Shown here one piece after another: positions 8,791 through 61,235 of a stretch of 64,000 nt of DNA. The DNA is from Chromatiaceae bacterium. Its GTDB lineage: Bacteria; Pseudomonadota; Gammaproteobacteria; Chromatiales; Chromatiaceae. The notes under the pieces were generated by a model. That model did not search any database, was not told where the DNA came from, and was given only the letters and a program-made list of their open reading frames with translations. Within the stretch, counting starts at the first letter, position 1. Each line of letters starts with the position of its first letter. The stretch covers positions 1 to 64,000 of the forward strand of contig JACDZG010000013.1 of NCBI GenBank assembly GCA_013426805.1. Reading direction: 5' to 3'. Both the position numbers and the translations under genes were made by a program.

Positions 8791-8817
8791 GGTCTGCTGG
8801 ATGTTCCGGTAATCGCC

Positions 8818-28534: not shown

Positions 28535-28827
28535 CTGCCCCCTTCGCGGATCGTGCGGACCTGGCGAGCCCTGGCGTCCGGCAGCGGCCGGCCATGACCG
28601 TCCTCGGGTCCTGGGTGGCGGCCTGGTGATGGATCATGCCGACGCCGATTGTCCGGCCATTGTAGCCGACCAGCCGGAAAGCCGGTGATCCGGCACCGGG
28701 ACGGATGCGCCGATCCAACCCTTGAGGTACCCTCTTCGCGCGGATTCCGATGGCCGGACGCGGTTGCCGCCGCTGAGACCATGACCAGAAGTCGGCTATA
28801 CTGACACTTCCCAATGATAGCGAGTCA
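28535..28827. promoter_or_regulatory. Divergent promoter region between ppkA and tagH
   Basis: The 293 nt between the two divergent T6SS units must contain promoters for both. The A+T-richer stretch just before tagH (about 28795-28825) is the likeliest site for its promoter. No clear operator was identified. Confidence 0.35.
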
Positions 28828-30534
28828 ATGCAGGGCATGGAGTACACGATAACTGTCGCGCGCTACGGCGGCGTGGCGCCCGTGCGGCCAGCCGGTTGGT
28901 GCGTGTCCGCGCGGGGTTGCACGATCGGCCGCAGCCCGGACAACGATCTCCCGCTGAGCGATCCGGAGCGTGTCATCTCCGGGCATCACGCGCGCGTCGA
29001 GTTGCGCGACGGCACCCTGTGGGTCACCGATCTGAGCACGAACGGGACCTTTCTCAATCAGGACGCGGAGCGGCTGCCGGTCGGTCAGCGGGTGCAGATC
29101 CAGGTAGGCGATATCCTGCATGTGGGCGGCTATGAGCTGTGCGTCGAGGCCAGCGCCGCCCACGGCGCGCCCGCGGGGCAATCAGCATCCCACGCGACCG
29201 ACCCGTTCGGATTCGGCGACGATGAGGTGCCGACCCTGGGCTCTGAGTTGCGCGCGAACGCGGACATCATGGACATCCTTGGCCCCAGCGGTCAGAACGG
29301 GGGGCCGCTGCCGGGCACCCCGCGTGCGCCCGCGCGCGCCGCGGCAGGGCGCGCTCAAGCCGAAGATCCGTTCGCCGATGCCGTGGCGTTCGATCCCTTT
29401 CTCGGCGGACCCGCCGAACCTGCGGACGCGCCGCTGATCACACCGGCGCCGACCCCCTTCGAGCATGTCTACGTGCGTGCGCCCGAGACCCAACCCGTTT
29501 CCAGCCAGGCGGTTTCAAACCAGCCGCACCGGCCCGCGGAACCCTTATTCCCGGATGAATACGACCTGATGGCCGATGCCTTGGGTCCAGCCGCCGGCCC
29601 CGCCGCGGTGCCGGCCGCCGCGCCTGCCGCGTTTACGGAGCCGGTCTGGGCGGAGCCGTTCGCCCCGGCAGCGGCCATCCCGGAACCGGTGTTCGAGGCG
29701 CCGGTCGGCGCGGCGCCCAGGTTCGACGAGCCGCTGTTTTCAGCGCTCGATGAGCCGGACGCACGGCTGACCAGCCTCGGCGTCGTCCCCGCGGTGGTGA
29801 CGCCGACCCCGCTCAGCGCCGCCGGAGCTGCCGCGACGGGACCGGGTCCAGTGATCGTCGCCGCGCCCGCCGCGTTACCGAGCGGTGACGGTAGCGGGCT
29901 CGCGGCCTTTCTGGCCGGCCTCGGCGCCGGCGATCCGGCCCAGGTCCGTGATCCCGACCTGTTTCTGCGCGCGGCCGGGCAATTGATGCGCGACCTCACC
30001 GCGGGCCTGACCGCGACCATGCAGGTGCGTGCCCAGTTCAAGAGCGAGCTGCGGTGCGCGGTGACCACCATCCGGGCCGTCGAGAACAACCCGTATAAGT
30101 TCTCCGTCGGGGTGGACGAAGCGCTGGAGCGGCTCTTCTTCCGGTCCGGCCCCGGCTATCTCCCGGCCGGCGAGGCCGCGCGTGCCGCCTTCGAAGACCT
30201 TCAGGCCCACGAGATGGCGATGATCGCCGGCTTGCGGGCGGCCTTGCGGGCACTGCTCGCGCGGTTTGAGCCCGCCGAACTGGAACAGCGGCTGGGTGCC
30301 GCTTCCGGGCTCGACAAGCTCCTGCCCATGGCGCGCAAGGCGCGCTTCTGGGATCTCTTCACCGAGACCTTCGCCCAGGTGGCGACAGACGCGGCGGACG
30401 ACTTCATGCAACTGTTCGGGGACGCCTTTACCCATGCCTACGAGGATCAGATCCAGCGGCTGGCGCAGGCGCGCGCCAAGGCCGCCGGACCGACGGCGGG
30501 TCGCGGGCCCGGCCGGTCCGGCCCACCGTCCTGA
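28828..30534 (+). CDS. tagH: T6SS-associated FHA-domain protein TagH
   Basis: The 568-residue protein has an N-terminal FHA domain (about residues 20-105) with GRSPDNDLPL, SGHHARV and STNGTFLN, the phosphothreonine-binding loops. A long Ala/Pro-rich low-complexity region follows (about 115-350). The C-terminal domain of about 190 residues (LMRDLTAGL, NPYKFS, FxDLFxE-like) is typical of TagH/ImpI. It is the phosphorylation-responsive scaffold that promotes T6SS assembly when modified by PpkA. It is the first gene of a co-directional run to pppA. A second ATG four codons in is an alternative start. Confidence 0.92.
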   Translation: MQGMEYTITVARYGGVAPVRPAGWCVSARGCTIGRSPDNDLPLSDPERVISGHHARVELRDGTLWVTDLSTNGTFLNQDAERLPVGQRVQIQVGDILHVGGYELCVEASAAHGAPAGQSASHATDPFGFGDDEVPTLGSELRANADIMDILGPSGQNGGPLPGTPRAPARAAAGRAQAEDPFADAVAFDPFLGGPAEPADAPLITPAPTPFEHVYVRAPETQPVSSQAVSNQPHRPAEPLFPDEYDLMADALGPAAGPAAVPAAAPAAFTEPVWAEPFAPAAAIPEPVFEAPVGAAPRFDEPLFSALDEPDARLTSLGVVPAVVTPTPLSAAGAAATGPGPVIVAAPAALPSGDGSGLAAFLAGLGAGDPAQVRDPDLFLRAAGQLMRDLTAGLTATMQVRAQFKSELRCAVTTIRAVENNPYKFSVGVDEALERLFFRSGPGYLPAGEAARAAFEDLQAHEMAMIAGLRAALRALLARFEPAELEQRLGAASGLDKLLPMARKARFWDLFTETFAQVATDAADDFMQLFGDAFTHAYEDQIQRLAQARAKAAGPTAGRGPGRSGPPS

Positions 30535-30588
30535 CCTCCACGTGCGCGCACCAGCATAACGACTTATTCGGCTTCAGGAGGGCAACCA

Positions 30589-31110
30589 ATGAGTGCAACC
30601 CGATTCGGACCGACACGGCGGCGACAGTTCCTGGGCCTGTTGGCAGCGACCGTAGCGATCGGTTTGCCGACGGCCTGCGCAAGCAAGCCAAAACCCGAGG
30701 CGCCGAAGAAGGAACCGGAGAAACCGGTGCCGGAACTGCGGGTCGAGGTCATTGCCGCCCCCGATGCCAATCGTGATCCGAGCGGGCGGGCGCTGCCGAT
30801 CGTGGTGCGGCTCTATGAATTGAAGGGCGAGGGCGCCTTTGCGGGCGCGGACTTCTTCAGCCTCTATGATCGGGCGCCCGCGACCCTGGGCGGCGACCTG
30901 GTCGCGCGCGAAGAGGTCACGCTGGTGCCGGGTCAGCGGCGGCTGGTCGTGCACCCGCTGAACCCCGCGGCCAGCCAGCTCGGGGTGGTCGCGGCCTTTC
31001 GTGACATCGACCGCGCCGGGTGGCGTGCGCTGGTCGCGCTGACGCCCGACCAGACCAACACGGTCCAGGTCGAGGTGCGGGCCGCGGCCGTTTCCGCTCA
31101 ACTGCGTTAA
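30589..31110 (+). CDS. tssJ: T6SS outer-membrane lipoprotein TssJ
   Basis: The 173-residue protein has a signal with a twin-arginine-like RRRQFLG start and a lipobox (LPTAC, Cys at about 31), then a short charged linker and the TssJ beta-sandwich with the family segments VVRLYELKG and FFSLYD. TssJ anchors the TssM periplasmic domain to the outer membrane. A CAGGAGGG ribosome-binding site precedes the ATG. It is 54 nt after tagH and 10 nt before tssK. Confidence 0.92.
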   Translation: MSATRFGPTRRRQFLGLLAATVAIGLPTACASKPKPEAPKKEPEKPVPELRVEVIAAPDANRDPSGRALPIVVRLYELKGEGAFAGADFFSLYDRAPATLGGDLVAREEVTLVPGQRRLVVHPLNPAASQLGVVAAFRDIDRAGWRALVALTPDQTNTVQVEVRAAAVSAQLR

Positions 31111-31120
31111 GGGAGAGACC

Positions 31121-32455
31121 ATGGCCTGGGACAACCGTGTGTTGTGGTCCGAGGGGCTGTTTCTGCAGCCCCACCACTTCCAGCAACACGACCGCTATCT
31201 GGAACATTTGGTGGAGTCCCAATCCGGACTCGGCTGCCCCTATCCCTGGGGCCTGTCACGACTGACCATCGACCGGGATCTGCTCGCACAGGGCCGGCTG
31301 GCCGTCACCGCGTGTGTCGGCCGGCTGCCGGACGGCACCCCCTGCGATGCTCCGGATTGCGATCCGCTGCCGCCGCCGCTGATCCTCGACGATGCCGCGG
31401 CCGGCCAGGTCGTCTACCTGGCGCTGCCGTTGCGCCGCCCGGGCGCCCCCGAAAGCGGTGCCCCGGCGGTCCAGGAGACCATGCTGCGCTACCGCGCCGG
31501 TGAGTTGACGGTGCGCGACAACAGTCTGGGCGCGGCGACCGAGGCGCTGCTGGAAGTCGGGCGTCTCGATCTGCGGCTGCTGCGCGAACGTGACGCCCGC
31601 GACGGCTTTGCCTGCTGCGGTATCGCCCGGGTACTGGAATGCCGCGCCGACCGTCTGGTGGTGCTCGATGATGCGTACATCCCGCCCAGCCTGGACGTGC
31701 GGACGTCCAGCCGCCTGGCCGGTTTCCTGGAGGAGGTGACCGGACTCATGCACCGCCAGGCCGAGGCGCGCGCCGGGCGCGTGCGCGGCGGCGGGCGCGG
31801 CGGGGTCGCCGACTGGGCCGACTTCCTGATGCTCCAGTTGATCAACCGCAGTGAACCGGTGACGATCCACCTCTCGCGCATCCAAGGGCTGCACCCGGAA
31901 CCTTTCTACCGCTTCCTGCTCGGGCTCGCCGGTGAACTTGCTACCTATGCGGCGGAAGCCAAGCGCCCGCCGGATTTCGCACCGTACCGGCACGAGGATC
32001 TGGATGCGACCTTCACCCCGCTCATGGAGCGCCTGCGGGACTATCTCAGCCGCGAATTGGTCGAGCGGGCCGTGGCGATTCCGATCGAGGAGCGCAAGTT
32101 CGGTTTTCGGGTGGCGCTGGTGGCCGATCGGTCCCTGCTGACGGGGGCCCGCTTCGTGTTGGCCGCACAGGCCGATCTGGACTCGCAAGTGCTGCGCAAC
32201 CGCTTTCCGGCCCAGGCCAAGATCGGACCCATCGAGCGCATCCAGGAGTTCGTCAAACTGGCCCTGCCGGGGATTGCCTTGCGGCCCCTGCCCACGGCCC
32301 CGCTGGAGATTCCCTATCATGCCGGCTGCGACTATTTCGAACTCGACCGCAATAGCGAGTTCTGGAAACCCTTGACCACCGGCGGGGGACTGGGACTGCA
32401 CATCGGTGGTGAGTTTCCGGGCTTGCAATTGACCCTGTGGGCGATTCGGGAGTAG
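31121..32455 (+). CDS. tssK: T6SS baseplate-membrane connector TssK
   Basis: The 444-residue protein starts with the family hallmark VLWSEGLFLQPHHFQQHDRY. It continues with the shoulder and C-terminal domains, including GIALRPLPTAPLEIPYHAGCDYFELDRNS-type sequence near 380. TssK is a cytoplasmic trimer that joins the baseplate to the TssL/TssM membrane complex. The GGGAGAG ribosome-binding site and the 3-nt gap to tssL fit a tightly coupled operon. Confidence 0.95.
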   Translation: MAWDNRVLWSEGLFLQPHHFQQHDRYLEHLVESQSGLGCPYPWGLSRLTIDRDLLAQGRLAVTACVGRLPDGTPCDAPDCDPLPPPLILDDAAAGQVVYLALPLRRPGAPESGAPAVQETMLRYRAGELTVRDNSLGAATEALLEVGRLDLRLLRERDARDGFACCGIARVLECRADRLVVLDDAYIPPSLDVRTSSRLAGFLEEVTGLMHRQAEARAGRVRGGGRGGVADWADFLMLQLINRSEPVTIHLSRIQGLHPEPFYRFLLGLAGELATYAAEAKRPPDFAPYRHEDLDATFTPLMERLRDYLSRELVERAVAIPIEERKFGFRVALVADRSLLTGARFVLAAQADLDSQVLRNRFPAQAKIGPIERIQEFVKLALPGIALRPLPTAPLEIPYHAGCDYFELDRNSEFWKPLTTGGGLGLHIGGEFPGLQLTLWAIRE

Positions 32456-32458
32456 CGC

Positions 32459-33886
32459 ATGACTGTCGACGATCCCTTTTTCGATCCCAATGACGCGGGT
32501 CCGACCGTCATCCGACCGACTCCCGGCGGCCGACGCCCGGCGGCCGGCGCACCCCCGCCGCCCATGTCCCCCCCGCCGTTCAATCCGCCGCCGCCGCGTC
32601 CGGCGGCCGCGGCTGATCCTGGGGCCGGTCCGCGGCCGCTGCCGATCGCCACCGACAACCCACTGGTCGCCTGTGCCGGTGACCTGCTCAGCGTCGCCGG
32701 CGAACTGCGGGGCAGCGCCGCGCACCGTGACCCGGAGGGGCTGCGCGAGCGTCTGGTGGGTCAGGTGCGGGATTTCGAGAACTGCGCCCGGGCGCGCGCC
32801 CTGGTGGAGACAGTGGTGCTGCCGGCCCGTTATGTCATGTGCGCCCTGCTGGACGAAGCGGTGCTGGACACGCCTTGGGGCAGCCAGAGCATCTGGAGCA
32901 AGCAGGGACTCCTGGTCAGCTTCCACAACGAGACCTGGGGCGGCGAGAAGTTCTTCGATGCGCTCGACCGCCTGCTGACCTACCCGGCAGGGAACCTGCA
33001 TCTTCTGGAACTGATTTATCTTTGTCTGGCCCAGGGCTTTGAAGGCCGCTACCGGGTGCGCGACGGGGGCCGCGATCAACTCGAACGCGTCCGCACCAAC
33101 CTGTATCAGACCATCCGCGCCCAGCGCGGCGAACCGGAGCGGGAGCTCTCCCCGCACTGGCGGGGGGTGACGCCCCAGCGCGATCCGCTGATCCAGCAGG
33201 TTCCGCTATGGGTGCTCTCCGCCGTCGCCGGCCTGTTGCTGCTCGGACTCTTCACCGCCTTCACCTTCGCGCTCAGTCGCGACTCGGACCCGGTCTATCT
33301 GTCGCTTGCCACCCTCGATCGGGGGATTCCGGATCCGGCGGACCGACCGCGCCGCGCCCTGCCGCCGCCGGTGGCGCCCGCGCCTGTGCCCGACGTCCCA
33401 CCGATTACCCTGCGCACCTTGCTGGCGGAGGATATCGCCGCCGACCGGATCGCCGTCATCGAGGGACCGCAAGGCCAGACCGTGACGATCCGCGGTGACG
33501 GGCTCTTTGCCTCGGCGCAGGCCAGCCTCACCCCCACGGTGGTGCCGTTGATCGAGCGGATCGCCGCCGCTCTGGCGCAACTGCCCGGTCCAGTGCTGGT
33601 GACCGGCCACAGTGACAGCGCCCCCATCAAATCCCTGCGCTATCCGTCCAACTGGCACCTGTCGCAAGCGCGCGCGGACGAAGTGACCAAACGGCTCGGG
33701 CAACTCACCAAGGACCCGGGACGCTTCATCGGTGAGGGCCGCGCCGACGCCGAGCCGGTGGTGCCGGAAAACCCGCGCGATGCGCGCAACCGGCGCGTCG
33801 AGATCACGCTGCAGCGGCCGAGCGCGGCCAGATCGCCCGCTGCGGGGGCGCTGTCCGTACCCCGCACCGAGGGCCTCGCTCCATGA
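32459..33886 (+). CDS. tssL: T6SS inner-membrane TssL with C-terminal OmpA/peptidoglycan-binding domain
   Basis: The 475-residue protein has a Pro-rich N-terminus, a DotU/TssL cytoplasmic domain (about 60-240, with YVMCALLDEAVLDTPWG), one transmembrane helix (about 248-270), and an OmpA-like peptidoglycan-binding domain (about 335-465) with VTGHSDSAPI and NRRVEITL. This is the extended TssL form that also anchors to the cell wall, rather than the short form needing TagL. The gene overlaps tssM by 4 nt (ATGA). Confidence 0.95.
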   Translation: MTVDDPFFDPNDAGPTVIRPTPGGRRPAAGAPPPPMSPPPFNPPPPRPAAAADPGAGPRPLPIATDNPLVACAGDLLSVAGELRGSAAHRDPEGLRERLVGQVRDFENCARARALVETVVLPARYVMCALLDEAVLDTPWGSQSIWSKQGLLVSFHNETWGGEKFFDALDRLLTYPAGNLHLLELIYLCLAQGFEGRYRVRDGGRDQLERVRTNLYQTIRAQRGEPERELSPHWRGVTPQRDPLIQQVPLWVLSAVAGLLLLGLFTAFTFALSRDSDPVYLSLATLDRGIPDPADRPRRALPPPVAPAPVPDVPPITLRTLLAEDIAADRIAVIEGPQGQTVTIRGDGLFASAQASLTPTVVPLIERIAAALAQLPGPVLVTGHSDSAPIKSLRYPSNWHLSQARADEVTKRLGQLTKDPGRFIGEGRADAEPVVPENPRDARNRRVEITLQRPSAARSPAAGALSVPRTEGLAP

Positions 33887-36800
33887 AGGCATTCTTTGGA
33901 TTTCTCACGGCCCGGTGGTTCCTGGCCCTGTTGGGCACCACTGCGCTTGCTGCCCTGGTGTGGCTCATCGGCCCCCTGTTCGGCTTCGCCGGGCGCGTGC
34001 CGCTGGAGCCGGAAGCATCGCGCTGGTGGGTCATCGGCAGCCTCTTCGCCCTGTGGGCGCTGTGGCAGATCGGCACGGCGGTGCTGGCGCGGCTGCGCAA
34101 CCGCCGCCTGATGGAGCAACTCGCGTCCGGCCCAGCCGCGACGCCCGACCCGACGCAGACGGCCTCCGCGGAGGAGCTGGCAACGCTGAAGCAGCGCTTT
34201 GATGAGGCGCTGTCGCTGCTCAAGGGCTCCGCGGGCCGCAAAGGGCTCGGCGGGCACTGGGTCTATCAACTGCCTTGGTATCTGATCATCGGCCCGCCCG
34301 GCTGCGGCAAGACCACCGCCCTGGTCAACTCGGGGCTGCGCTTCCCGCTCGCCGAGCGGCTGGGGCAGGACCCGGTCCAGGGCGTGGGCGGCACCCGCAA
34401 CTGCGATTGGTGGTTCTCGGATCAGGCCGTGCTGTTGGACACGGCGGGGCGCTACACCACGCAGGACAGTTATGCCCAGGTCGACAACGCCGCCTGGACC
34501 GGCTTCCTGGCGCTGCTCAAGCGCCATCGCCCGCGGCGTCCCATCAACGGGGTGCTGGTGGCGGTCAGCTTGTCGGATCTGCTGCAACTCTCCCCGACCG
34601 AGCGCGCCGCCCATGCGCAGGCGATCCGCCAGCGCGTCCAGGAGATCTACGCCGCCTTCCGCATTCGCGTGCCGCTCTATGTTCTCTTCATGAAGGCTGA
34701 CCTGGTGGCCGGCTTCATGGAATATTTCGCGGATCTCGGCAAAGAGGGGCGCGAACAGGTCTGGGGCATGACCTTCCCCTTCGATCCCGCCCCCACGGCC
34801 GCGGGCACACTGAGCGGTTTCCACGCCGCGCACCAGGCGCTGTCGCAGCGGCTCGATCAGCGTCTGCTCGGGCGGATGCAGGAGGAGCGCGACCCCCGGC
34901 GGCGCGGTCTGGTGTTCAACTTCCCGCGTCAGTTCGCCGCGCTTGGCGAGACCATCCAGCAGTTTCTCACCGACGCGCTGGAGTCTACCCGCTATGAGGT
35001 GCGGCCCCTGGTTCGCGGGGTCTATTTTACCAGCGGCACCCAGACCGGCACCCCGATCGACCGGGTGCTCGCGGCGATCGCCGCCAATTTTGGCCTGGGG
35101 CGCCAGGGGCCGGCTCCCTTCAACGGCACTGCCAAGACGTTCTTCGTCAACCGTCTGCTCACCGATGTGGTGTTTCCGGAGGCCCCGCTGGCCGGGCTCG
35201 ATCCGCGCCGGGAACAACGGCGGCGCTGGCTGCGCTGGGGTGCTTATGCGGGGGCCGTGTTGCTCGCGGTGACGGCCGCCGCGCTCTGGAGTCTGAGCTA
35301 CGCGCGCAACCGTGCCTATATCGCCGAGGTCGCCACCCAGGTCGCCGCCATCCAGACCCGGATCGATGCGCTGGAGCCCAGCGGGCGTGATGTGCTCGCC
35401 GTCTTGCCGCTGCTCGACGCCGCCCGCCGCATTCCCGGTGGTTATGCCGAGCGCGACGCCGACACACCGCTGACCATGGGATTGGGTCTGTATCAGGGGG
35501 ACAAGCTTGGATCCCAGGCGCAACGCACCTATCGACGGGTGCTGGTGCGCGCCTTGCTGCCCGCGGTGATCCTGCGGCTGGAGGAGCAAATCCGCCAGGG
35601 CGCGGCCGATCCGGCGACTCTCTACGAGGCGTTGCGCGCGTATTTGATGCTGGACGATGCGGAGCACTACGACCCCGACCAGTTGCAGATCTGGATCGAG
35701 CGTGACTGGGCGCGCAGTCTGCCGCGCGAAACCACGACCGAGCAGCGCGAGGCATTGGCCGGCCATCTGGCCGCCTTGCTGGAGACCCGGCCGAGTCCGT
35801 TACCCTTGGCACTGGATGCGGACCTGATCGGGCAGGCGCGCGACATCCTGAGCAGTGCCCCGCTGGCCACCCGGGTCTATGCGCAATTGAAGCAAGCGGG
35901 ACCGGGCGCGGGGCTGCCCGACTTCACCATCGCCACCGCCGGCGGCGATCTCGCCAAGCTGGTGTTCCAGCGGCGCAGCGGCCAACCGATCAACCAGGGC
36001 ATTCCCGCGCTCTACACCTACGCGGGCTACCATCAGGGGTTCGACGCGGTGACCGCCCGCCTGATCGCGGATGAGGCCGCGGAGAGCTGGGTCCTGGGTC
36101 CGAGCGCGCGGCTCACCCCCGGCAGCCCCGCGGCCAAGGCGCTGATCGAAGCCGTCCGCACGGCCTATCTGCGCGACTATGTGGCGCAGTGGAACAGCCT
36201 GTTGGAAGACCTCGGATTGGTCCCGGCGCGGGACCTGCCGCACGCGGCCGAGATGGCCGATGCGCTCGCCGCCCCGGACGACTCGCCGCTGCGCCAACTG
36301 CTGGTCGCGGCGGCCCGCGAGACTGAACTCGATCGTCCGACGGAATCGGCGGTGACCGGCGACCAGGCGGCCAAGATCGCGGCCAGGGCCGCCGGCGCCA
36401 CGAGCATGGTCACTAACCTGCGCAACCAGGTCGGCCGCTATTTCGATGCCCCCACGACGCAGGAGCAGCCCGGTGAGGCGCCGGAAGCCTATGTGACGCG
36501 CCGTTTCGCCTGGCTGCACGATCTGGTCCAGGGCAAGGGCGATCGACCCGCACCGCTGGATAAGTCACTGGAGAGTGTCGGTCAACTCGGGGCGCATCTG
36601 CGTTCAGTGGCGGCTGCCGCCACCACCGGGCGCGGCACCCTGGCGGCCGGCACCGGGACCGAGATCCAGGCGGCCAAACAGGCGGCGGCCGCCCAGCCGC
36701 CGGTCCTTGCCGCATTGCTCGGGGCGCTGGCGGAAGACAGCGCCGGCCTGGTGGCCGGGGGCGCGCGGTCACATCTGAACAATCTCTGGACGTCCGAGAT

Positions 36801-37461
36801 CCTGCCGTTCTGCCGTGAGGCAATCCAGGGTCGCTATCCATTCGATAAAGGCAGCGCTCGGGATACCACCCTGGCCGACTTCGGGCAACTGTTCGGCCCC
36901 GGCGGATTGCTGGAGACCTTCTTCAAGACCAACCTGGCCCCCCTGGCGGACACCTCGCGTCGCCAGTGGCGCTGGGTGAACGCCGACTTGGGTATTCCCG
37001 CGTCGGTCCTGACGCAGTTCCAGCGGGCCGCGACCATCCGTGACGCATTTTTCGCGCCCGGGGCCAAGGTCCCGGGGGTGGAGTTTGCACTGACCCCCAC
37101 CAGCCTCGACGCACGGGCGACTCAGTTCACACTGGACTTGGGCGGTCAACTCCTTGATTACCGCCATGGGCCCATGAAAGCGCAGGTGCTCAAGTGGCCC
37201 GCTCCCGACGGGCTCGGACAGGTGCGGCTGGTGTTCACCGGGGTCGACGGCAAGACGCCCGGTCAGACCGAAGAGGGTCCCTGGGCCTGGTTTCGGGTGC
37301 TCGACCGGGCCCGGCTTCAGCCCACCGGACAGCCGGAGCTGTTCCGCCTGACCTTTGCCCTGGGCGGGTTGTCGGCAGCGTTCGATTTGCGTGCGATGAG
37401 TGTGCGCAATCCCTTCCAACTCGACGAATTGCGCGGCTTTGCCTGCCCGGAGCGGCTATGA
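33883..37461 (+). CDS. tssM: T6SS inner-membrane protein TssM (IcmF)
   Basis: The 1192-residue protein has two N-terminal transmembrane helices (about 10-30 and 50-70), a cytoplasmic NTPase-like domain with intact Walker A GPPGCGKTT (Lys143), a third transmembrane helix (about 448-468), and a large periplasmic IcmF/DUF1215 region and C-terminal beta domain. Length and order are normal for TssM. It forms the trans-envelope channel with TssL and TssJ. Coupled ATGA overlaps occur at both ends (tssL before, tagF after). Confidence 0.96.
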   Translation: MKAFFGFLTARWFLALLGTTALAALVWLIGPLFGFAGRVPLEPEASRWWVIGSLFALWALWQIGTAVLARLRNRRLMEQLASGPAATPDPTQTASAEELATLKQRFDEALSLLKGSAGRKGLGGHWVYQLPWYLIIGPPGCGKTTALVNSGLRFPLAERLGQDPVQGVGGTRNCDWWFSDQAVLLDTAGRYTTQDSYAQVDNAAWTGFLALLKRHRPRRPINGVLVAVSLSDLLQLSPTERAAHAQAIRQRVQEIYAAFRIRVPLYVLFMKADLVAGFMEYFADLGKEGREQVWGMTFPFDPAPTAAGTLSGFHAAHQALSQRLDQRLLGRMQEERDPRRRGLVFNFPRQFAALGETIQQFLTDALESTRYEVRPLVRGVYFTSGTQTGTPIDRVLAAIAANFGLGRQGPAPFNGTAKTFFVNRLLTDVVFPEAPLAGLDPRREQRRRWLRWGAYAGAVLLAVTAAALWSLSYARNRAYIAEVATQVAAIQTRIDALEPSGRDVLAVLPLLDAARRIPGGYAERDADTPLTMGLGLYQGDKLGSQAQRTYRRVLVRALLPAVILRLEEQIRQGAADPATLYEALRAYLMLDDAEHYDPDQLQIWIERDWARSLPRETTTEQREALAGHLAALLETRPSPLPLALDADLIGQARDILSSAPLATRVYAQLKQAGPGAGLPDFTIATAGGDLAKLVFQRRSGQPINQGIPALYTYAGYHQGFDAVTARLIADEAAESWVLGPSARLTPGSPAAKALIEAVRTAYLRDYVAQWNSLLEDLGLVPARDLPHAAEMADALAAPDDSPLRQLLVAAARETELDRPTESAVTGDQAAKIAARAAGATSMVTNLRNQVGRYFDAPTTQEQPGEAPEAYVTRRFAWLHDLVQGKGDRPAPLDKSLESVGQLGAHLRSVAAAATTGRGTLAAGTGTEIQAAKQAAAAQPPVLAALLGALAEDSAGLVAGGARSHLNNLWTSEILPFCREAIQGRYPFDKGSARDTTLADFGQLFGPGGLLETFFKTNLAPLADTSRRQWRWVNADLGIPASVLTQFQRAATIRDAFFAPGAKVPGVEFALTPTSLDARATQFTLDLGGQLLDYRHGPMKAQVLKWPAPDGLGQVRLVFTGVDGKTPGQTEEGPWAWFRVLDRARLQPTGQPELFRLTFALGGLSAAFDLRAMSVRNPFQLDELRGFACPERL

Positions 37462-38204
37462 GCACGGGGAACCCGGTCGGGACCGGGTTCTACGGCAAAC
37501 TCCCGCACCTGGGTGACTTCGTCGGTCGGCGCTTATCTACCGAACTGATCGAGCCCTGGGATCAATGGCTGCAAGCCTCCCTGGCGGCCAGCCGCGCCCG
37601 TCTTGGCGAGGCGTGGTTGGAGCACTATCTCAGCAGTCCGCTGTGGCGCTTTGTCCTCAGTCCCGGCGTGGCGGGGCAGGGAGCCTGGACCGGGGTCCTG
37701 ATGCCGAGCGTGGACCGGGTGGGACGTTACTTCCCGCTCACCCTCGCTTGTTCGCTGCCGACGGGCACCAACCCTTGCCGGTTACTCAATGTCACCGACT
37801 GGTTCGAGCGGGCGGAGGCGCTGGCCCTGTCCGTCCTCGATGACCCCTTTTCGCTGGATGACTTCGACACCGCGGTCCTGGCGCTGGGTGACCCCATCGG
37901 CGCGGCTGGTGCGATCGGCCCTCCCGAGCCAGGTCGTGGACGACCCAATGCCTGGCACCTGAGCACGGCCGACGGACCGGTCGACGGCGCCTGCCCGAAC
38001 CTGCTGGACCATGCCATGAACCAGGTGTTCCTCGCCTACAGCCTGTGGTGGGGCCAGGGGTCCGACCTGGTCGCGCCCTCGCTCCTGGCCTGTCAGGGGT
38101 TGCCGCCGCCCGATGGCTTTGCCGCGCTCCTCAATGGCGATTGGTCCGGGGGCGATTGGCGGCTGCTCGGGGAGGCGCAGCGAACCGCGAGTCCGGAGGC
38201 GTGA
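37458..38204 (+). CDS. tagF: T6SS-associated protein TagF
   Basis: The 248-residue protein starts with the TagF signature GFYGKLPHLGDFVGRRL and contains WLxxSPLWRF- and DRVGRYFPLT-like segments. In other bacteria TagF represses T6SS assembly post-translationally, often by sequestering the FHA protein, and is sometimes fused to PppA; here it is a separate gene directly before pppA. The ATG overlaps the tssM stop codon. Confidence 0.93.
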   Translation: MSTGNPVGTGFYGKLPHLGDFVGRRLSTELIEPWDQWLQASLAASRARLGEAWLEHYLSSPLWRFVLSPGVAGQGAWTGVLMPSVDRVGRYFPLTLACSLPTGTNPCRLLNVTDWFERAEALALSVLDDPFSLDDFDTAVLALGDPIGAAGAIGPPEPGRGRPNAWHLSTADGPVDGACPNLLDHAMNQVFLAYSLWWGQGSDLVAPSLLACQGLPPPDGFAALLNGDWSGGDWRLLGEAQRTASPEA

Positions 38205-38205
38205 C

Positions 38206-38955
38206 GTGGACGATCCCTGCCCAGGCTTCCGCTGGATCTCCGGTGGTGCGACCGATCAGGGTATGCGCCGCTCCATCAATCAGGACGCCTTCCTAGACCG
38301 TCCCGACCTGGGGCTCTGGGCCGTCGCCGACGGGATGGGCGGGCACCGCGACGGCGATCGGGCGAGTCGGCTGCTGGTCGAGGCGCTCGCGGCCCTGCCG
38401 CACCCACGCCTGCTCGGAGCGGCAGGAGACGCTGTGCGCGCGGCCCTGACCGCCGTCAACCGGGCACTGTTCGATGAGTCCGCCGCCGGCAGCGATGTCA
38501 TCGGCAGCACCATCGTCACCCTGATCGCGGTCGGCGATCACTGCGGCATCCTGTGGGTGGGGGACAGCCGCGTCTATCGGTTGCGTGACGGTATCATCGC
38601 CCGCCTCACCCGTGACCACACCCAGGTCCAGGCCCTGGTCGACCAGGGGCTGCTGGCCCCGGAACAAGCCGCAGGCCACCCGTACTCCAATGTCCTGGCC
38701 CGCGCCATCGGCGCGGACGCCTGGGTTGAGATCGACACCCGCATCGAACCCCTGCGTGACGGCGACCGCTACCTGCTGTGCAGCGACGGGCTGGACAAGG
38801 AGTTGGGTGATCCGGAAATTGCCGTGGTGCTTGGCGGGACTCATGGCGGTGCCGACCTTGGGCCTATCGCCCAGGCCTTGGTGCAGCGTGCCTGCGCGGC
38901 CGGCGGGCGCGACAACGTCACGGCCGTCGTCGTTCAGTTTGAGCGGCGTGCGTAG
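38206..38955 (+). CDS. pppA: T6SS PP2C-type Ser/Thr phosphatase PppA
   Basis: The GTG at 38206, just after the tagF stop and preceded by GGAGG, gives a 249-residue PP2C-family phosphatase. Visible metal-binding motifs are RSINQDAF, ADGMGGHRDGD, WVGDSRVYRLRDG, CSDGLDKEL and GGRDNVTAVVV. It should remove the phosphate that PpkA places on TagH, keeping the T6SS off. It is the last gene of the operon, followed by a hairpin. Confidence 0.93.
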   Translation: MDDPCPGFRWISGGATDQGMRRSINQDAFLDRPDLGLWAVADGMGGHRDGDRASRLLVEALAALPHPRLLGAAGDAVRAALTAVNRALFDESAAGSDVIGSTIVTLIAVGDHCGILWVGDSRVYRLRDGIIARLTRDHTQVQALVDQGLLAPEQAAGHPYSNVLARAIGADAWVEIDTRIEPLRDGDRYLLCSDGLDKELGDPEIAVVLGGTHGGADLGPIAQALVQRACAAGGRDNVTAVVVQFERRA

Positions 38956-42196: not shown

Positions 42197-42592
42197 ATGA
42201 GCGAGCAACTTGAGCTGATTTCGTTGGCGGATCTGATCGAGCAGATCAAGACCGATCTCCTGACCAAGGGTGCCGGAAACAACCCGGCATTCTTTATCGA
42301 CGGCGTGGAGATCGCGGCCCAAGTCGTCGCCCGGCGCGAACAAGCCGAGGGGGGCAAGGCCGGCCTCGGGATCAGTCTGGCGGTGCTCGGGCTGCGGGCC
42401 GACGCCGGGGTCGACACCAAGACCACGCTGGGCAGCCAATTGACTCAGACGGTCACGATCAAACTATCCCCCCTGCTGAGCAAAGAGCAATACCTCGCCC
42501 AACTCGGGGACGCTGAGCGGGAGCGGGTGACGCAGACGGCCGCCAAGGTGGTGGCCCGCGGGACCCGCGGTGGATCCGGCAACCCGGTTTGA
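42197..42592 (+). CDS. Trypco2-like (trypsin-co-occurring domain) protein
   Basis: The 131-residue protein starts after a strong AGGAGG ribosome-binding site. It has the pattern of the trypsin-co-occurring domain 2: an N-terminal amphipathic helix (LADLIEQIKTDLL), a FFIDGVEIAAQVVARRE strand pair, a LGISLAVLGLRADAG strand, then the QTVTIKLSPL strand. Such small domains accompany trypsin-like proteases, CHAT proteases and STAND NTPases in predicted conflict systems. Here the next gene, 45 nt downstream, begins with a CHAT-like N-terminal segment but is broken. The assignment is by pattern and needs a profile search. Confidence 0.6.
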   Translation: MSEQLELISLADLIEQIKTDLLTKGAGNNPAFFIDGVEIAAQVVARREQAEGGKAGLGISLAVLGLRADAGVDTKTTLGSQLTQTVTIKLSPLLSKEQYLAQLGDAERERVTQTAAKVVARGTRGGSGNPV

Positions 42593-44305: not shown

Positions 44306-46567
44306 ATGCCCATGCTCACCATCCCCGCGGCCGCGTCACTCCAGCCCTTGCGCCGACAACTGCGTTGCAGTTTTCCGCAGCTCGACCAGGTGTTCCCGGA
44401 CTGTATCGCCGAGGCTCAAGCGCTGCTGAGTCCGGCGGGGATCACCGATTATCTGGAGGGAGCTTCGCTGATCTGCCGCATCGGCCGCGGCTTCGAGCCG
44501 GTCCTGGTCTACCTGGAGGAGTTGCCGCAAGTCGCCGCCGATCTGGGCGAGCAGACCCTGGGGCTGGTCTCGCAGACGGTGTGGAAGATCTCGCGCAGTC
44601 CGAACGGCAAGGCGATTCTGCCCTTTCTTCAGAGTATTGCCGCGGTGTCGCGCCGGCTCGCCAGCGCCGAGTTGCTGGGTCGCTACACCGAGATGATCCT
44701 GAGTTTCATGGAGCGGACCACCGGCTCCATTCACGGCTTTCATACCACGATCCCGAGTCCGAGCCTGCCGGATCTGCTGGAGCGCATCCCGTACCTGCTC
44801 AGTCAGCTCACCTGCCATGGGCTGAGTAATTGGGTCGAATACGGCCTGCGCCACTATGCCGATCACCCGGACCGTCAGCGCGACTATTTCAGTCTGCAAT
44901 CGACCGACAGCCGTGCGGTGCTCCAGCGCGAGCGTCACGGCACCCTGTTCGTCGACCATGAGCGCCAGCTCGACCTCTATCTGCGGTCTTTGTGGTGCGA
45001 GCACCGGCCGTTCGTTCCCTATTCGGACGCCTTCGACACGCTGCGCAAGCCCATGCCCTATGTCGACGCCTTGGGGGTGCGGGTTCCGGATGTCTACGAC
45101 GACCGTGCCGGAGTGGCCGGGATCGACCGCTACCGCGCCTTGCTGGCCCACGTCGCCGCGCATCTGCGCTGGAGCGGCTCGCTGATCGCCGACAACCTGA
45201 GCCCCTTCCAGCGGGTGGCCGTCGAGACCTTCGAGGACTGCCGGGTCGACTGCCTGGCGATCCGCGAATACCCTGGGCTGCGGCGGCTGTTCCTGGCCCT
45301 GCACCCGCGGCCGGAAGAAGACGCCTGCGACCCCGAGCAGGAGTCCTGCATCCGCCATCGTCTGGCCATGTTCTCGCGCGCCGCGCTCGACCCGGATCAC
45401 GGCTACCGCAATCCGGATTTGGTCGACTTCGTCGCCCGTTTCCACGCCGAGTTGGCCGCCGGCGCGTCCAGCACCCAGGCCATCGCCGAGCTGGCGATCA
45501 CCTATATCGCCCGTACCCGCCGTCAGCAGGATCTCTCACCCAAGGTCTATTTCACCGACACCGAAGTCGATTACCGCGACGATAACCGCCATCTGTGGCG
45601 CTATATCGAGCAGGGCGATGAAGAAGAGTCATTCGAAGAGCGCAAGCCGCCCAAGGCCGAGGAGGCGCAGACCCTGCCGCCCCGCCATTACCCGGAGTGG
45701 GACTACCAGAGCAAGACCTACCGTCCCGACTGGGTGAGTCTCTACGAGGCACTGCATCCCGCGGGCGACCCGGCCAGGATCGACGCGCTGCTCGACAAGC
45801 ACCGGATGCTGGCCAAGCGTCTCAAGCAGATTCTCGACCTGCTCAAGCCGCAGCAATATGTGCGCCTGCGGTATCAGGAGGAGGGCAGCGAGCTGGATCT
45901 GGATGTGGCCATTCGCTCGCTCATCGACTACCGCGGCGGTGCCACCCCGGACCCGCGCATCAATATGAGCCACCGGCATGACGGGCGCGATATCGCCGTG
46001 ATGCTCCTGCTGGATCTCTCCCAGTCGCTCAATCAGATTCCGGACGGCTGCACCCAGAGCATTCTGGAATTGAGCCAGGAGGCGGTCGCACTGCTCGGCT
46101 GGGCCATCGATCACCTGGGTGACGAGTTCGCCATCGCCGGCTTCTCCTCCAACACCCGGCATGAGGTTCGCTACCAGCACATCAAGGGCTATCGCGAACA
46201 CTGGGACGACCAGGTCAAGGCGCGTCTCGCCGCCATGGAGGCCGGCTACTCCACCCGCATGGGCGCCGCCTTGCGTCACGCCGCCCATTACCTGGAGGCC
46301 CGCCAGGCGGAGAAAAAGCTGATGCTCATCCTCACCGACGGTCAGCCCCATGACATCGACGTGCAGGACGAACGCCTGCTCATCGAAGACACGCACAAGG
46401 CCGTGCAGGAACTCGATCAACAGGGCATCTATACCTACTGCATCAGTCTCGACGCCCATGCCGACGACTATGTCCGCGACTGTTTCGGCAATCGCTTCAC
46501 CGTCATCGACCGGGTGGAGCGGCTGCCGGAGAAACTGCCGCGGTTGTTTATGGCGTTGACCAAGTGA
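44306..46567 (+). CDS. VWA-domain protein of the CbbO/NorD type
   Basis: The 753-residue protein has a long helical N-terminal domain with several conserved Arg/His/Asp-rich segments (e.g. ETFEDCRVDCLAIREYPGLR), an acidic linker (about 435-450), and a C-terminal von Willebrand factor A domain (about 555-753) with MIDAS motif DLSQS and LTDGQPHD. This is the CbbO/NorD architecture. Such proteins pair with a MoxR-family ATPase (CbbQ/NorQ) to remodel Rubisco or activate nitric oxide reductase. No cbbQ/norQ or client gene is adjacent here, so the client is unknown. Confidence 0.82.
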   Translation: MPMLTIPAAASLQPLRRQLRCSFPQLDQVFPDCIAEAQALLSPAGITDYLEGASLICRIGRGFEPVLVYLEELPQVAADLGEQTLGLVSQTVWKISRSPNGKAILPFLQSIAAVSRRLASAELLGRYTEMILSFMERTTGSIHGFHTTIPSPSLPDLLERIPYLLSQLTCHGLSNWVEYGLRHYADHPDRQRDYFSLQSTDSRAVLQRERHGTLFVDHERQLDLYLRSLWCEHRPFVPYSDAFDTLRKPMPYVDALGVRVPDVYDDRAGVAGIDRYRALLAHVAAHLRWSGSLIADNLSPFQRVAVETFEDCRVDCLAIREYPGLRRLFLALHPRPEEDACDPEQESCIRHRLAMFSRAALDPDHGYRNPDLVDFVARFHAELAAGASSTQAIAELAITYIARTRRQQDLSPKVYFTDTEVDYRDDNRHLWRYIEQGDEEESFEERKPPKAEEAQTLPPRHYPEWDYQSKTYRPDWVSLYEALHPAGDPARIDALLDKHRMLAKRLKQILDLLKPQQYVRLRYQEEGSELDLDVAIRSLIDYRGGATPDPRINMSHRHDGRDIAVMLLLDLSQSLNQIPDGCTQSILELSQEAVALLGWAIDHLGDEFAIAGFSSNTRHEVRYQHIKGYREHWDDQVKARLAAMEAGYSTRMGAALRHAAHYLEARQAEKKLMLILTDGQPHDIDVQDERLLIEDTHKAVQELDQQGIYTYCISLDAHADDYVRDCFGNRFTVIDRVERLPEKLPRLFMALTK

Positions 46568-50380: not shown

Positions 50381-51466
50381 TCAGTCAACTGGTCGATCGT
50401 CCCCCTGGTTTGGCTCCAACACCAGATTGATACGGTTGTCGCCGATACGGTGAAGCGAGGACTGGCTGCGGTAGCCGGGGGCGATCACCATCACCTCGAT
50501 CCGCGCGCCGGCCGGTTCCCGCAACGTGATGATAAAACGGCCAAAGCGGTCCGTTTCACTGCTTGCCGCGCGGGTGGGGATGAACACGCGGACCCCGGGG
50601 ATCGGTTGACCGCTGCGCTCCCAGACAAAGCCGGCAATGCCGCTGGTCGCGGCGATGGGCTCCGCGGGCGGCAGCGGCGCCGGCGTGTCCGGCTCCAACC
50701 ACCACACCAGGCCCAAGGCAGCGAATGCCAACCCGGCACCCAGTCGGAGCAAACGGTTGCCCAGTCGGGTGTCCAGACCCGCAATCCAGGTGAGCAGGCG
50801 GGCGCCGACACCCTGGTCTTGACGGATCCGGGCCTGCGGCCAGACCGCGATCAGCGCTTGGGAAGGGAGTAGAAATCCGTTCCGTCCCGGGCTGTCGGCG
50901 GCGACCACAAGACCCAGCACGGATTCGCGGATCGGGTCCCAGGCGCCGGTTCCGGTGAAACTGCCGTCGATGCTGCCGTGATCGGTTTCCAGGCCGGTGA
51001 TGGTCTGCGCGTCTTCATCGGCACAGTCCGCGTGGATCCGCAGCCCGGTCGGATGCTCCGGTGGAAACCCCAGACAGAACACTGCCCGGTTGCGGTAGGC
51101 CGCGGGTTCGAGCAACTCCAACTCAGCCGCGACGGCCAGTTGCGGAACCGGCTCGGTCAGCTCCAGCACGGCCAGCCCCGGCGGTTGCGCACCGGGGAGC
51201 GTCCAGCGCGGGTCCAGTCCGGCGTAGGGTGCCCAGGCCGCGACCCGCGCGATCCCGCGGTGCGGGTTCGGCAGCAGGGGCAGGATCACCGCGATCTCCC
51301 CGGCCGGCGCCGCTGTGCCGACCTCCGCCCGCAGGGCGGCGGCGACCACGGTCGCGCAGGTCATCACCTGCCGCGGACCGATGAGCACACCGGCACCGAC
51401 CCATTCATCGTCATCAAGGTCGGCGCAGCGGCCGATGCGTGCCTGCCAGGGGTATCCGTCGTGCAT
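50381..51466 (-). CDS. Trypsin-fold membrane protein with degenerate catalytic triad and C-terminal beta domain
   Basis: The 361-residue protein begins with a chymotrypsin-like domain (about 1-210): VGAGVLIGPRQVMTCATVV, PPGLAVLELTEPVP and SFTGTGAWDP align with the segments that carry His, Asp and Ser in active relatives. Here the positions are Thr39, Gly97 and Thr171, so the triad is lost. One transmembrane helix follows (about 240-262). The C-terminal domain (about 285-355, GFVWERSGQPIPGVRVFI, DRFGRFIITL, APGYRSQ) is a carboxypeptidase-regulatory-like beta-sandwich. The fold suggests a role in the trypsin-associated conflict systems, as a sensor or scaffold rather than a protease. It is monocistronic and convergent with the restriction gene. 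Confidence 0.75.
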   Translation of the reverse strand: MHDGYPWQARIGRCADLDDDEWVGAGVLIGPRQVMTCATVVAAALRAEVGTAAPAGEIAVILPLLPNPHRGIARVAAWAPYAGLDPRWTLPGAQPPGLAVLELTEPVPQLAVAAELELLEPAAYRNRAVFCLGFPPEHPTGLRIHADCADEDAQTITGLETDHGSIDGSFTGTGAWDPIRESVLGLVVAADSPGRNGFLLPSQALIAVWPQARIRQDQGVGARLLTWIAGLDTRLGNRLLRLGAGLAFAALGLVWWLEPDTPAPLPPAEPIAATSGIAGFVWERSGQPIPGVRVFIPTRAASSETDRFGRFIITLREPAGARIEVMVIAPGYRSQSSLHRIGDNRINLVLEPNQGDDRPVD

Positions 51467-52564: not shown

Positions 52565-53659
52565 ATGAATATTCCGGCAGTGTCCATCGCGGCAGCCAAG
52601 CAAGCGTTGATCGAGCAGTACACCGACCCTTTGCTGCGCCGCCGCGCCTCCATGCTGTGGGGTACCCGCGGCGTGGGCAAATCGTCCATCGTGCACCAGG
52701 TGGCAGCGCACTTCGGCGTGCCGCTGGTGGATTTGCGCCTGACCACCATCGAGCCGGTGGACATCCGCGGCGCGATCTGGGTGGACGAGCGGCAGTCCAA
52801 GACCCTGTGGTTCCCGCCGGAGTTCCTGCCCGATCAGGATGAGCCGGACGGCATCCTGTTTCTTGACGAGTTGACCGCGGCCGATCAACGCCTGCAGATC
52901 TCCGCCTATTCACTGATCCTGGATCGCCGCGTCGGTCATTATTGCCTGCCGGATGGATGGCAGGTCATCGCGGCGGGGAACGCCGGCTTCCACGGGGCGA
53001 TCGCCCACGATATGGGCACGGCGCTCGCTGACCGGATGTTCCATTTCAACGTACAGACCGCCATCGACGCCTTTCTGGCCCACGCCCTGACCAGAGGATT
53101 TGCCCCGGAGGTGTTGGCTTATCTCAAGGTGCGCCCCGACAAGCTCGACGATACTCAGGCGCAACTCGCCAACGATCATCTGGTGGGGGCGAGCCCGCGC
53201 GGCTGGGAAGACGTCTCCAACGTGCTCAAGTCCGGGCTGTCGGAGCCGGCCAAGCGGGTCTTCGTCCAAGGGCGCGTCGGCGCGGCCAACGCGGCCGAGT
53301 TCTTCGGTGTGCTGCGCGAAATCCAGGCGGGGGTCGACGTGCTGCGGCTGCTTGCCGCCCGGCCCGGGGCCGAGACCGCGGCGCTGTTGCCGACCAGCCT
53401 CGATGCGCTGTACGGCATGATCTACGGACTGCTGGCGGCGACCCAGGACGCCGCGACCCTCATCCGCGCACTGGAGATCATCGAGCAACTGCCCGACGCC
53501 CGTGCCACCACCCCGCTGCCGATCCGCGAGGCCCAGACCCTGGTGATGGAGCTGCTGTTTCAGCGCGCTCTGGAGTCCGGTCTGGAGGCGGCAATCTTCG
53601 ACAGCCCGGCCTATCGGCGCTACAGCGAACAGCGCAAGGCCGAGGGGCTGGCCGACTAG
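52565..53659 (+). CDS. MoxR-family AAA+ ATPase
   Basis: The 364-residue ATPase has Walker A GTRGVGKSS (near residue 33), the Walker B strand ILFLDELTAA (near 98), sensor 1 VIAAGNAG (near 136) and an arginine-rich lid, all typical of MoxR-type chaperone ATPases. These ATPases usually work with a VWA-domain partner to remodel a client complex. The VWA protein at 59877 (HExxH plus VWA) is of the type normally found next to it; here the hydrogenase operon lies between them. AGGAG lies 11 nt before the ATG. Confidence 0.87.
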   Translation: MNIPAVSIAAAKQALIEQYTDPLLRRRASMLWGTRGVGKSSIVHQVAAHFGVPLVDLRLTTIEPVDIRGAIWVDERQSKTLWFPPEFLPDQDEPDGILFLDELTAADQRLQISAYSLILDRRVGHYCLPDGWQVIAAGNAGFHGAIAHDMGTALADRMFHFNVQTAIDAFLAHALTRGFAPEVLAYLKVRPDKLDDTQAQLANDHLVGASPRGWEDVSNVLKSGLSEPAKRVFVQGRVGAANAAEFFGVLREIQAGVDVLRLLAARPGAETAALLPTSLDALYGMIYGLLAATQDAATLIRALEIIEQLPDARATTPLPIREAQTLVMELLFQRALESGLEAAIFDSPAYRRYSEQRKAEGLAD

Positions 53660-59876: not shown

Positions 59877-61235
59877 ATGCACATCCACCGCGGCACCCGG
59901 GCGATTCAGCGGCTGGTCGAGTATGCGCCCTCCAGCGGCGGTCTGGCCCTCTGGGTCAAACACCTCGACCGGGATGATGTTCCCGATACACTAAACGCCG
60001 CTAACGACGGTACCGCCATCTTCTACGGCCCGGAGTTCAGCATCTTGCCGCTCACCGAACAGGCCGGACTGGTCGCTCATGAGGTCCTGCATGTCGCGCT
60101 GCGTCACCGCCAACGCTACGTGGCGTTGCGTGGTCTGCTGGGCGATGTGGATCTGCAACTTTTTAATTGCTGTGCCGATGCGATCGTCAACAGTGCGCTT
60201 GGGCACCTGACCTGGCTGGAACTGCCCCCAGGCGCGGTCGGTCTGGACAGCATCCTGGACACGGCGCTGAGTATTCGGGAGCCGGTCGAAAAATCCCTGC
60301 TCGAATGGGACCTGGAGCGGCTCTATCGCGCCATCGACGATCGTCGCCTGCCGCAGGTGTCGGGCCCGGCCGCCAGCCGCATGCCGTCCCAGTCCGGCAA
60401 AGCCGGTGCCGGCGCGCAGCACCAGGGTCCGAGCGACTCCCACGAGCAAGAACAGGAGGATGCAACGGCCGGACGCTGGACGACGCGGTTCGACGGTCCA
60501 CGGGCCGCGCGGGTCCGGGGTCTGGCGTCGCGGATCCAGGAAGACCTTTGGCCCGGTGCCGACGAGAGCCGACCCGAGGCCGAAATGGAGGAAGCACGAG
60601 AGTGGGGCCAGCGCCTCGCGCGGGCCCACACCGGTGACGGTACCTTCTCGTTGCTGCGGGTGCTGCTGGCGGATCTCCCCAGGGTCCGGACACCCTGGGA
60701 GCATCTGCTGCGCACCCATCTCACCCGCGGCCTGTCGCTGGCGCCGGGACTGTCCTGGTCGCGTCCATCGCGTTCCTACCTGGCGAACCAGGGCCGCGTC
60801 GGCACCCGCGGGCGCATGCCTTGGGAGCCGGGACGGGTCTCAGCGCGCGCCGTCGCCCGGCTGGTGGTGATGGTGGATCTCTCGGGTTCCATCGACGCCC
60901 CGCTGCTCGACCGCTTCGCCCGCGAGTTACAGGCGGTGACCCGGCGCCTGGAGGCGCGGGTGATCGTCATCCTCGGCGATGACCGGGTGACCGGGGTCGA
61001 GGTCTACGAGCCCGGCCGTTTCAACCTGCCGGACCTGGTCTTCGACGGCGGCGGCGGCACCGACTTCACCCCCTTGCTGCGCGAGGCCGACCGCCATCGC
61101 CCGGATTTGGGCCTGTTCCTGACCGACCTGGATGGTCCGGCCGACTTCCGCCCCCGCTGGCCGGTGATCTGGGCGGTGCCGGTCGCCAACGAGCAGGCCG
61201 AGGCACCTTTTGGGCGCAAGTTGGTGTTGGGCTGA
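59877..61235 (+). CDS. VWA-like/DUF2201 putative metallopeptidase
   Basis: The 452-residue protein has an N-terminal putative metallopeptidase domain with HEVLH (HExxH, near residue 67). The middle is a disordered Gln/Ser/Glu-rich linker (about 170-205). The C-terminal VWA-like domain has a MIDAS-like DLSGS (near 336) and a GGGGTDFTP loop. Proteins of this type are usually encoded directly after a MoxR ATPase such as the one at 52565. Whether the HExxH domain is an active protease is not known. Confidence 0.83.
   Translation: MHIHRGTRAIQRLVEYAPSSGGLALWVKHLDRDDVPDTLNAANDGTAIFYGPEFSILPLTEQAGLVAHEVLHVALRHRQRYVALRGLLGDVDLQLFNCCADAIVNSALGHLTWLELPPGAVGLDSILDTALSIREPVEKSLLEWDLERLYRAIDDRRLPQVSGPAASRMPSQSGKAGAGAQHQGPSDSHEQEQEDATAGRWTTRFDGPRAARVRGLASRIQEDLWPGADESRPEAEMEEAREWGQRLARAHTGDGTFSLLRVLLADLPRVRTPWEHLLRTHLTRGLSLAPGLSWSRPSRSYLANQGRVGTRGRMPWEPGRVSARAVARLVVMVDLSGSIDAPLLDRFARELQAVTRRLEARVIVILGDDRVTGVEVYEPGRFNLPDLVFDGGGGTDFTPLLREADRHRPDLGLFLTDLDGPADFRPRWPVIWAVPVANEQAEAPFGRKLVLG

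Follow-up and report, generated by a model that had tools for sequence, protein, structure and literature searches.

A predicted trypsin-fold pseudo-enzyme joined to a probable transmembrane helix and a CarboxypepD_reg domain in a Chromatiaceae bacterium

The trypsin-fold domain, its replaced residues and its tail

The window, as we call the whole stretch of 64,000 nucleotides that was analyzed, comes from a Chromatiaceae bacterium, a purple sulfur bacterium (genome G000). On its reverse strand, positions 50381 to 51466 hold an open frame of 361 codons beginning with ATG, whose 361-residue product, referred to here as the pseudo-trypsin, appears to consist of a trypsin-fold domain, a transmembrane (TM) helix and a CarboxypepD_reg (CpdReg) domain. 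The gene call is supported by two full-length orthologues, one in Lamprocystis purpurea DSM 4197 (genome G142; L005, the same as L017; 91% identity) and one in a second congener (G107; L006; 63% identity), both of which share the start methionine with the window protein in the alignment. A scan of the window in all six frames with a trypsin profile finds this ORF and no other, and the protein has no match in PADLOC (E values up to 0.01) or NCBIfam (up to 0.001).

The trypsin-fold domain spans residues 1-212 (50831 to 51466, reverse strand). Taken alone, the window protein has no Pfam trypsin match up to an E value of 1, and its 63% identical orthologue matches Trypsin_2 with an E value of 1.5e-5 and 26.2 bits, under the gathering score of 27.6. 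When the three pseudo-trypsins were compared by hhalign with five active domains, a set from which the closest (nSTAND1) relatives were excluded, the result was 98.5% with an E value of 2.3e-15 over 186 columns. A family profile of eight rows, three of them pseudo-trypsins, also matches the solved structure 3k6z, a possible membrane-associated serine protease that we take to be MarP, with the His and Ser motifs in register; this match is weak (E value of 8.4e-5) and no single stretch passes by itself. Because an AlphaFold prediction for the window protein and its L. purpurea orthologue (two rows) gave a mean pLDDT of 33.6, the fold assignment rests on sequence, and by these comparisons the domain is a member of the Trypsin_2, or S1-like, fold over its length.

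The original prediction placed Thr39, Gly97 and Thr171 at the catalytic His, Asp and Ser positions, and two MAFFT alignments, of 8 and 15 rows, put all three residues in those columns. The Thr39 codon (51350 to 51352) lies in CATVV, where active relatives have CAHVV; the Gly97 codon (51176 to 51178) in PPGLAVL, against PEDIAVL; and the Thr171 codon (50954 to 50956) in SFTGTGAWD, against GFSGTGAWD, all on the reverse strand. In the larger alignment, from which L003 (Ser part deleted), L008 (frame broken) and the fragments L084 and the second L023 piece were left out, 12 of the 15 trypsin domains have His, Asp and Ser in these columns; the other three are the window protein and its two orthologues, which have Thr, Thr and Ser at the His column, Gly throughout at the Asp column and Thr throughout at the Ser column. 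The residue two before the nucleophile, at the oxyanion-hole position that we take to be chymotrypsin 193, is Gly in all 12 triad rows and Ser in all three pseudo-trypsins (Ser169 in the window protein; codon at 50960 to 50962, reverse strand). The triad is lost in every orthologue.

The His and Ser columns are free of gaps for two residues on either side, and a one-column gap directly precedes the Asp column. In hhalign, Thr39 again faces the His and Thr171 the Ser, and the Asp stands opposite Ala99 instead of Gly97, so that the Asp site holds no acidic residue under either method. We favor Gly97 over Ala99, since LAVLEL corresponds to IAVLEL in the active domains. With neither the triad nor the oxyanion Gly in any of the three rows, these proteins are predicted to be inactive as serine proteases.

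The remainder of the layout that had been proposed, with a helix and a CpdReg domain after the trypsin fold, is borne out for both domains and stands as probable for the helix. This lies at about residues 239-257 (50696 to 50752, reverse strand), and its hydropathy near residues 239-255 is 1.79, against 1.64 for a segment inside the trypsin domain; the orthologues reach 2.19 and 2.12, and in the G107 protein the helix at 2.12 compares with 2.14 for a segment within the trypsin domain. Because hydropathy alone hardly separates the helix from such segments, its assignment draws as well on how it aligns with TM segments in the related proteins described below. The counts of Lys and Arg in the 20 flanking residues are 3 against 0, 2 against 0 and 4 against 0 in the three orthologues and 5 against 1 both in an active trypsin protein and in the TIR protein of G107, and the counts agree across the three orthologues, the trypsin protein and the single-helix TIR proteins. 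By the positive-inside rule the protein would be oriented N-in/C-out, with the trypsin domain in the cytosol and the CpdReg domain in the periplasm. The latter covers residues 277-349 (50420 to 50638, reverse strand) and matches Pfam PF13620 with an E value of 3e-7 and 31.1 bits, just under the gathering score of 32.3. From about residue 226 onward the pseudo-trypsin is homologous to the tails of other proteins of a wider family, and hhalign of its CpdReg domain against those of the TIR, SEFIR, headless and trypsin members gives 98.3% with an E value of 1.3e-14.

Orthologues, selection and possible decay

Among 210 genomes of the order, 11 match the pseudo-trypsin at an E value of 1e-5 and three, the window's own included, have a full-length copy; within the genus, full-length copies occur in three of eight genomes. 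A fourth, G079, a congener, has a frame-broken remnant adjoining leuC, in the same place as the intact gene of G107, and in the remaining four neither a full copy nor a remnant was recognized, G188 giving no more than a weak match of 23 residues. In a survey of 96 genomes leuC was found in 92, and of 30 loci examined, over up to 1500 bases upstream and some over less, one (G079) held anything related; G107 and G143 were outside these 30. The genome that contains the window has, upstream of leuC, not the pseudo-trypsin but an uncharacterized frame that matches nothing in Pfam (L088 2-772, equivalent to L045 2-793). Viral contigs scanned with the trypsin alignment gave no relative and phage records no match to the pseudo-trypsin, and the three matches in plasmid records are all cyanobacterial, 26-29% identical and in the trypsin part.

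The pseudo-trypsin is kept as a protein under purifying selection, with a constraint looser than that on its neighbors. Between the window and L. purpurea its dN/dS (NG86 throughout) is 0.25, with 0.32 in the trypsin domain, 0.23 in the linker and TM helix and 0.15 in the CpdReg domain; between the window and the G107 orthologue it is 0.27 at a dS of 1.06, with 0.34 in the CpdReg part, and between the two orthologues it is 0.32. The neighboring MoxR, vWA and DUF1840 genes have ratios of 0.05, 0.03 and 0.06 between the window and L. purpurea, and that of the pseudo-trypsin is four to eight times as high.

This faster evolution (0.25 against 0.03-0.06) is one of several hints that the gene might be a relic, left after both partner and triad had disappeared from an active trypsin receptor, and now decaying. 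The broken G079 remnant beside leuC, the occurrence of full-length copies in only three of the eight genus genomes and the lack, in two of the three carriers, of the TPR partner gene described below all fit such a history. We nevertheless regard decay as unlikely, because under neutral evolution the frame should no longer be open: the frames are intact in three species down to 63% identity, dN/dS is about 0.27 even at a dS of about 1, and the FTGTGAWD and PPGLAVL motifs are invariant in the three orthologues.

Relatives of the two halves

The trypsin domain of the pseudo-trypsin groups with nSTAND1-fused trypsins with moderate support (88/85, under the firm-support threshold of the tree tool). 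It is 38% identical to the domain of L002, from the same genome, and 42% identical to that of L007, from G093, both of which are fused to nSTAND1 (Pfam, E values of 4e-101 and 3e-104); for L023 the fusion is assumed. Since G142 and G107 gave no match to the trypsin-nSTAND1 paralogue with all candidates scored, which leaves it in one carrier species of the three, a fixed partnership between the two proteins is unsupported across species. In the genus, some copies of trypsin-nSTAND1 and TIR-CpdReg genes are broken or have internal deletions (L003 1447-2832, L008 and L016), a sign of fast turnover.

The tail leads to a different set of proteins, in which various heads precede TM segments and a CpdReg domain. 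These comprise a SEFIR protein with three TM segments in G027 (L022; PADLOC bSEFIR, E value of 1.6e-32; 6321-8956); a protein of three TM segments and CpdReg with no recognized head in G115 (L010/L028); TIR-TM-CpdReg proteins in G107 (L021; 4605-7891) and in G803, from another family of the class (L090 144-1097, ending near the contig edge), whose TIR_2 matches have E values of 1.6e-9 and 6.6e-18; and a trypsin-TM-CpdReg protein in G143 (L031/L087; 2811-6833 of L087) with an intact triad (Trypsin_2, E value of 2.5e-9) and a Trypco1 gene upstream (E value of 1.4e-15). Family-wide, a CpdReg search matched 12 of 194 genomes, the matches including five large frames with unread N-termini (L032-L036) and one, L038, that overlaps the G107 partner gene; class-wide, the four matches among 229 are the window's own, the TIR protein L090 and two unlike proteins (L091 and L092). 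In G127 there is a broken TIR-CpdReg gene without a partner. A literature search, with most subscription papers outside its reach, returned no report of a TM-CpdReg layout with exchangeable heads.

In G143, G107, G027 and G115 the TM-CpdReg gene is followed by the gene of a probably secreted TPR protein, and in three of the four pairs the two genes overlap through an ATGA start/stop. The partner has a hydrophobic, signal-like N-terminus (examined in two, by hydropathy), a CpdReg-like region and TPR-kind repeats; Pfam matches in three partners are weak, with CarboxypepD_reg in one (E value of 7e-4), TPR in two (6e-5 and 3e-4) and no match in the third. A TIR_2 match in the L031 partner (E value of 2e-4) was taken as chance, with no passing stretch. 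With up to 11 candidates scored per genome, the partner family was found in at least 4 of the 194 family genomes, each time adjoining a TM-CpdReg gene; a phylum-wide search, which took the best five candidates per genome and had no positive control, found it in 0 of 398 genomes and shows little.

By homology the pseudo-trypsin has the head, TM and tail order of this family without the adjacent partner, and it is an orphan of the TM-CpdReg set. No TPR partner gene is seen beside any of the orthologues on reading of their loci, none was detected in G000 or G142 with all candidates scored, and the one in G107 lies within the TIR pair, away from the pseudo-trypsin. The presence in G107 of both the pseudo-trypsin and a TIR-TM-CpdReg and TPR pair would suit a decoy or inhibitor receptor for the two-gene systems, its CpdReg domain competing for the TPR sensor or for a rival's signal, but with no partner protein detected in the other two carriers we consider this improbable.

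Descent in place from a G143-type operon was considered and rejected. The G107 pseudo-trypsin and the G143 operon are both divergent beside leuC, where the G079 remnant also lies, but tblastn detects no similarity between their trypsins, and the pseudo-trypsin is closest to the nSTAND1 trypsins; what the two have in common is the locus or the CpdReg half at most.

Gene neighborhood and putative role

In the window and in L. purpurea the pseudo-trypsin gene lies between a vWA gene (44306-46567 in the window) and a DUF1840-MoxR segment containing a MoxR-like AAA gene (52565-53659), is transcribed against them, and is separated from the vWA gene by other genes. In G107 it lies between a weakly metallophosphatase-like gene and leuC, and the 20 kb of this locus contain no match to the window's MoxR, vWA or Trypco2; MoxR and vWA are near the pseudo-trypsin in two of the three loci. 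These flanking genes, together with the inactive trypsins of VMAP systems described in one report (PMC7159879), could point to an effector or regulator of a MoxR-vWA ternary conflict system. We consider this very improbable and set it aside because the G107 locus has neither gene in its 20 kb, and no conserved linkage to MoxR-vWA or to NucA is seen at the pseudo-trypsin loci. The opposite transcription and the intervening genes argue against it as well, as do the roughly eightfold and fivefold lower dN/dS of the vWA and MoxR genes; no VMAP or iSTAND match occurs among nine proteins (the pseudo-trypsin and eight nearby frames), and bpMoxR matches the AAA protein at an E value of 0.027 at best.

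No conserved neighborhood of CHAT, trypco and STAND genes, to which the original prediction had looked, was found. One Trypco2 gene lies 8 kb away (42197 to 42592, forward strand; PF19631, E value of 6e-10); tblastn found no match to it in L. purpurea, over 37 kb of the contig, or in 20 kb around the G107 orthologue. Neither CHAT nor a convincing STAND domain occurs among the Pfam-scanned window proteins (most of 1-38 kb and of 54-59 kb being outside the scan), and an nSTAND6 match of the AAA protein, with an E value of 0.096, is at chance level. About 21 kb from its pseudo-trypsin (L019 13359-14566), L. purpurea carries a Trypco1 and, after it, a trypsin-EAD8 fusion with an intact triad; because tblastn with the Trypco1 of L031 missed this Trypco1, a diverged Trypco1 near the G107 copy could have escaped notice too. 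The proposed link to conflict systems draws on homology, through the grouping with nSTAND1 trypsins and the tail in common with TIR, SEFIR and Trypco1-trypsin proteins, and not on gene context.

Several other features of the window may be recorded here. The segment 46595-50348, with a GC content of 0.585 against 0.649 for the whole window, is a candidate defense block; it contains an AAA_21 ATPase like the PADLOC mad3/AbiLi/AriA proteins, a gene of 165 aa, an N6/N4 DNA methylase and two frames without convincing matches, and in L. purpurea the ATPase is a broken piece only (L017 12462-12823). MoxR-like AAA genes and DUF2201 metallopeptidase-vWA genes are usually neighbors, and in the window the two (52565-53659 and 59877-61235) are split, by our reading, by a hydrogenase-like operon. 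At 26657-38955, kinase-, FHA-, TssM/IcmF-like and PP2C genes resemble a type VI secretion cluster, the PP2C assigned by Pfam and the others by reading.

That the pseudo-trypsin retains hydrolase activity through an atypical active site, such as one using Thr171 as nucleophile together with other residues, is hardly credible: Thr can act as the nucleophile in other enzyme classes, and all three orthologues have His145 and His163, but the His, Asp and oxyanion Gly are gone in all three, the His and Ser sites agree across both MAFFT alignments and hhalign, and Gly97 and Ala99 are both non-acidic.

We give about an even chance to the pseudo-trypsin being a maintained, membrane-tethered, non-catalytic protein of the inner membrane with a putative docking or regulatory function. 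Its CpdReg domain would read a state in the periplasm, and the trypsin-fold domain in the cytosol, coupled to it, would bind rather than cut. Most likely it would dock onto, and restrain or recruit, an active trypsin-domain protein, such as the trypsin-nSTAND1 protein of the same genome, or a substrate of that protein, acting as a membrane-tethered regulator or decoy. The missing TPR partner gene suggests that the pseudo-trypsin no longer follows the two-gene design and works on its own or with different partners. The sensor role first proposed for it is a possible candidate.

A broader interpretation, which we offer tentatively and which may well prove wrong, is that the TM-CpdReg proteins are receptors laid out like those of the animal Toll/IL-17 type, with a constant periplasmic CpdReg domain, interchangeable TIR, SEFIR and Trypco1-trypsin heads and often a co-translated secreted TPR sensor, and that they occur in purple sulfur bacteria and in one or more further families of the class; the window would then encode a docking or decoy pseudo-enzyme. 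If true, this would point to bacterial receptors built so that the head in the cytosol can be exchanged or inactivated, with the pseudo-trypsin as a small, testable case of the role of an inactive protease in such a system. Inactive peptidases in bacterial conflict systems are already known, described as vWA fusions, and the newer aspect lies around the pseudo-trypsin, in a receptor-like family with exchangeable immune heads.

Among the proteins to which it can be compared, the trypsin-nSTAND1 proteins (L002 and L007) have the trypsin fold in common with the pseudo-trypsin but keep His, Asp and Ser, are fused to nSTAND1 and gave no CpdReg match in the stretch read. The G143 operon is alike in the order of trypsin, TM and CpdReg and, like the G107 copy, in its position beside leuC, and differs in its intact triad, its upstream Trypco1, its downstream TPR partner and its trypsin, for which tblastn detects no similarity. 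The bSEFIR and TIR proteins (L022, L021 and L090) resemble the pseudo-trypsin in their C-terminal half and differ in having a SEFIR or TIR head and, in the SEFIR form, three TM segments. The conflict loci with DGRs described from Chromatiaceae belong to related bacteria and have trypsin, Trypco, TIR and MoxR parts; a search of the available text gave no CarboxypepD (PMC10907252), and any DGR tie of the pseudo-trypsin would be conjectural.

Two published precedents, the VMAP trypsins and MamO, suggest roles that an inactive trypsin may have. For VMAP systems it is reported that almost all of the trypsins fused to vWA lack activity, and a dominant-negative or peptide-binding role has been proposed for them (PMC7159879). 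These and the inactive trypsins of NucA-trypsin systems have, like the pseudo-trypsin, the fold without the catalysis in a proposed conflict context, whereas the inactive proteins are fused to vWA and the pseudo-trypsin to TM-CpdReg (PMC7159879). MamO is a trypsin-fold pseudo-protease that is reported to promote MamE-dependent proteolysis (PMC4794232). It differs in retaining the His and Asp of the triad (H116 and D149, mutated in that study), in its metal binding and in its setting in the magnetosomes of magnetotactic bacteria, and the text examined contains no CpdReg (PMC4794232). MamO is like the pseudo-trypsin in being of the trypsin_2 type with Thr at the nucleophile position and a non-Gly residue at 193, a number that the paper applies to MamO's own residue, and its non-catalytic role parallels the putative one of the window protein (PMC4794232); of the marks of the MamO type, which include activating a protease non-catalytically, the pseudo-trypsin has the loss of catalytic residues and the non-Gly 193.
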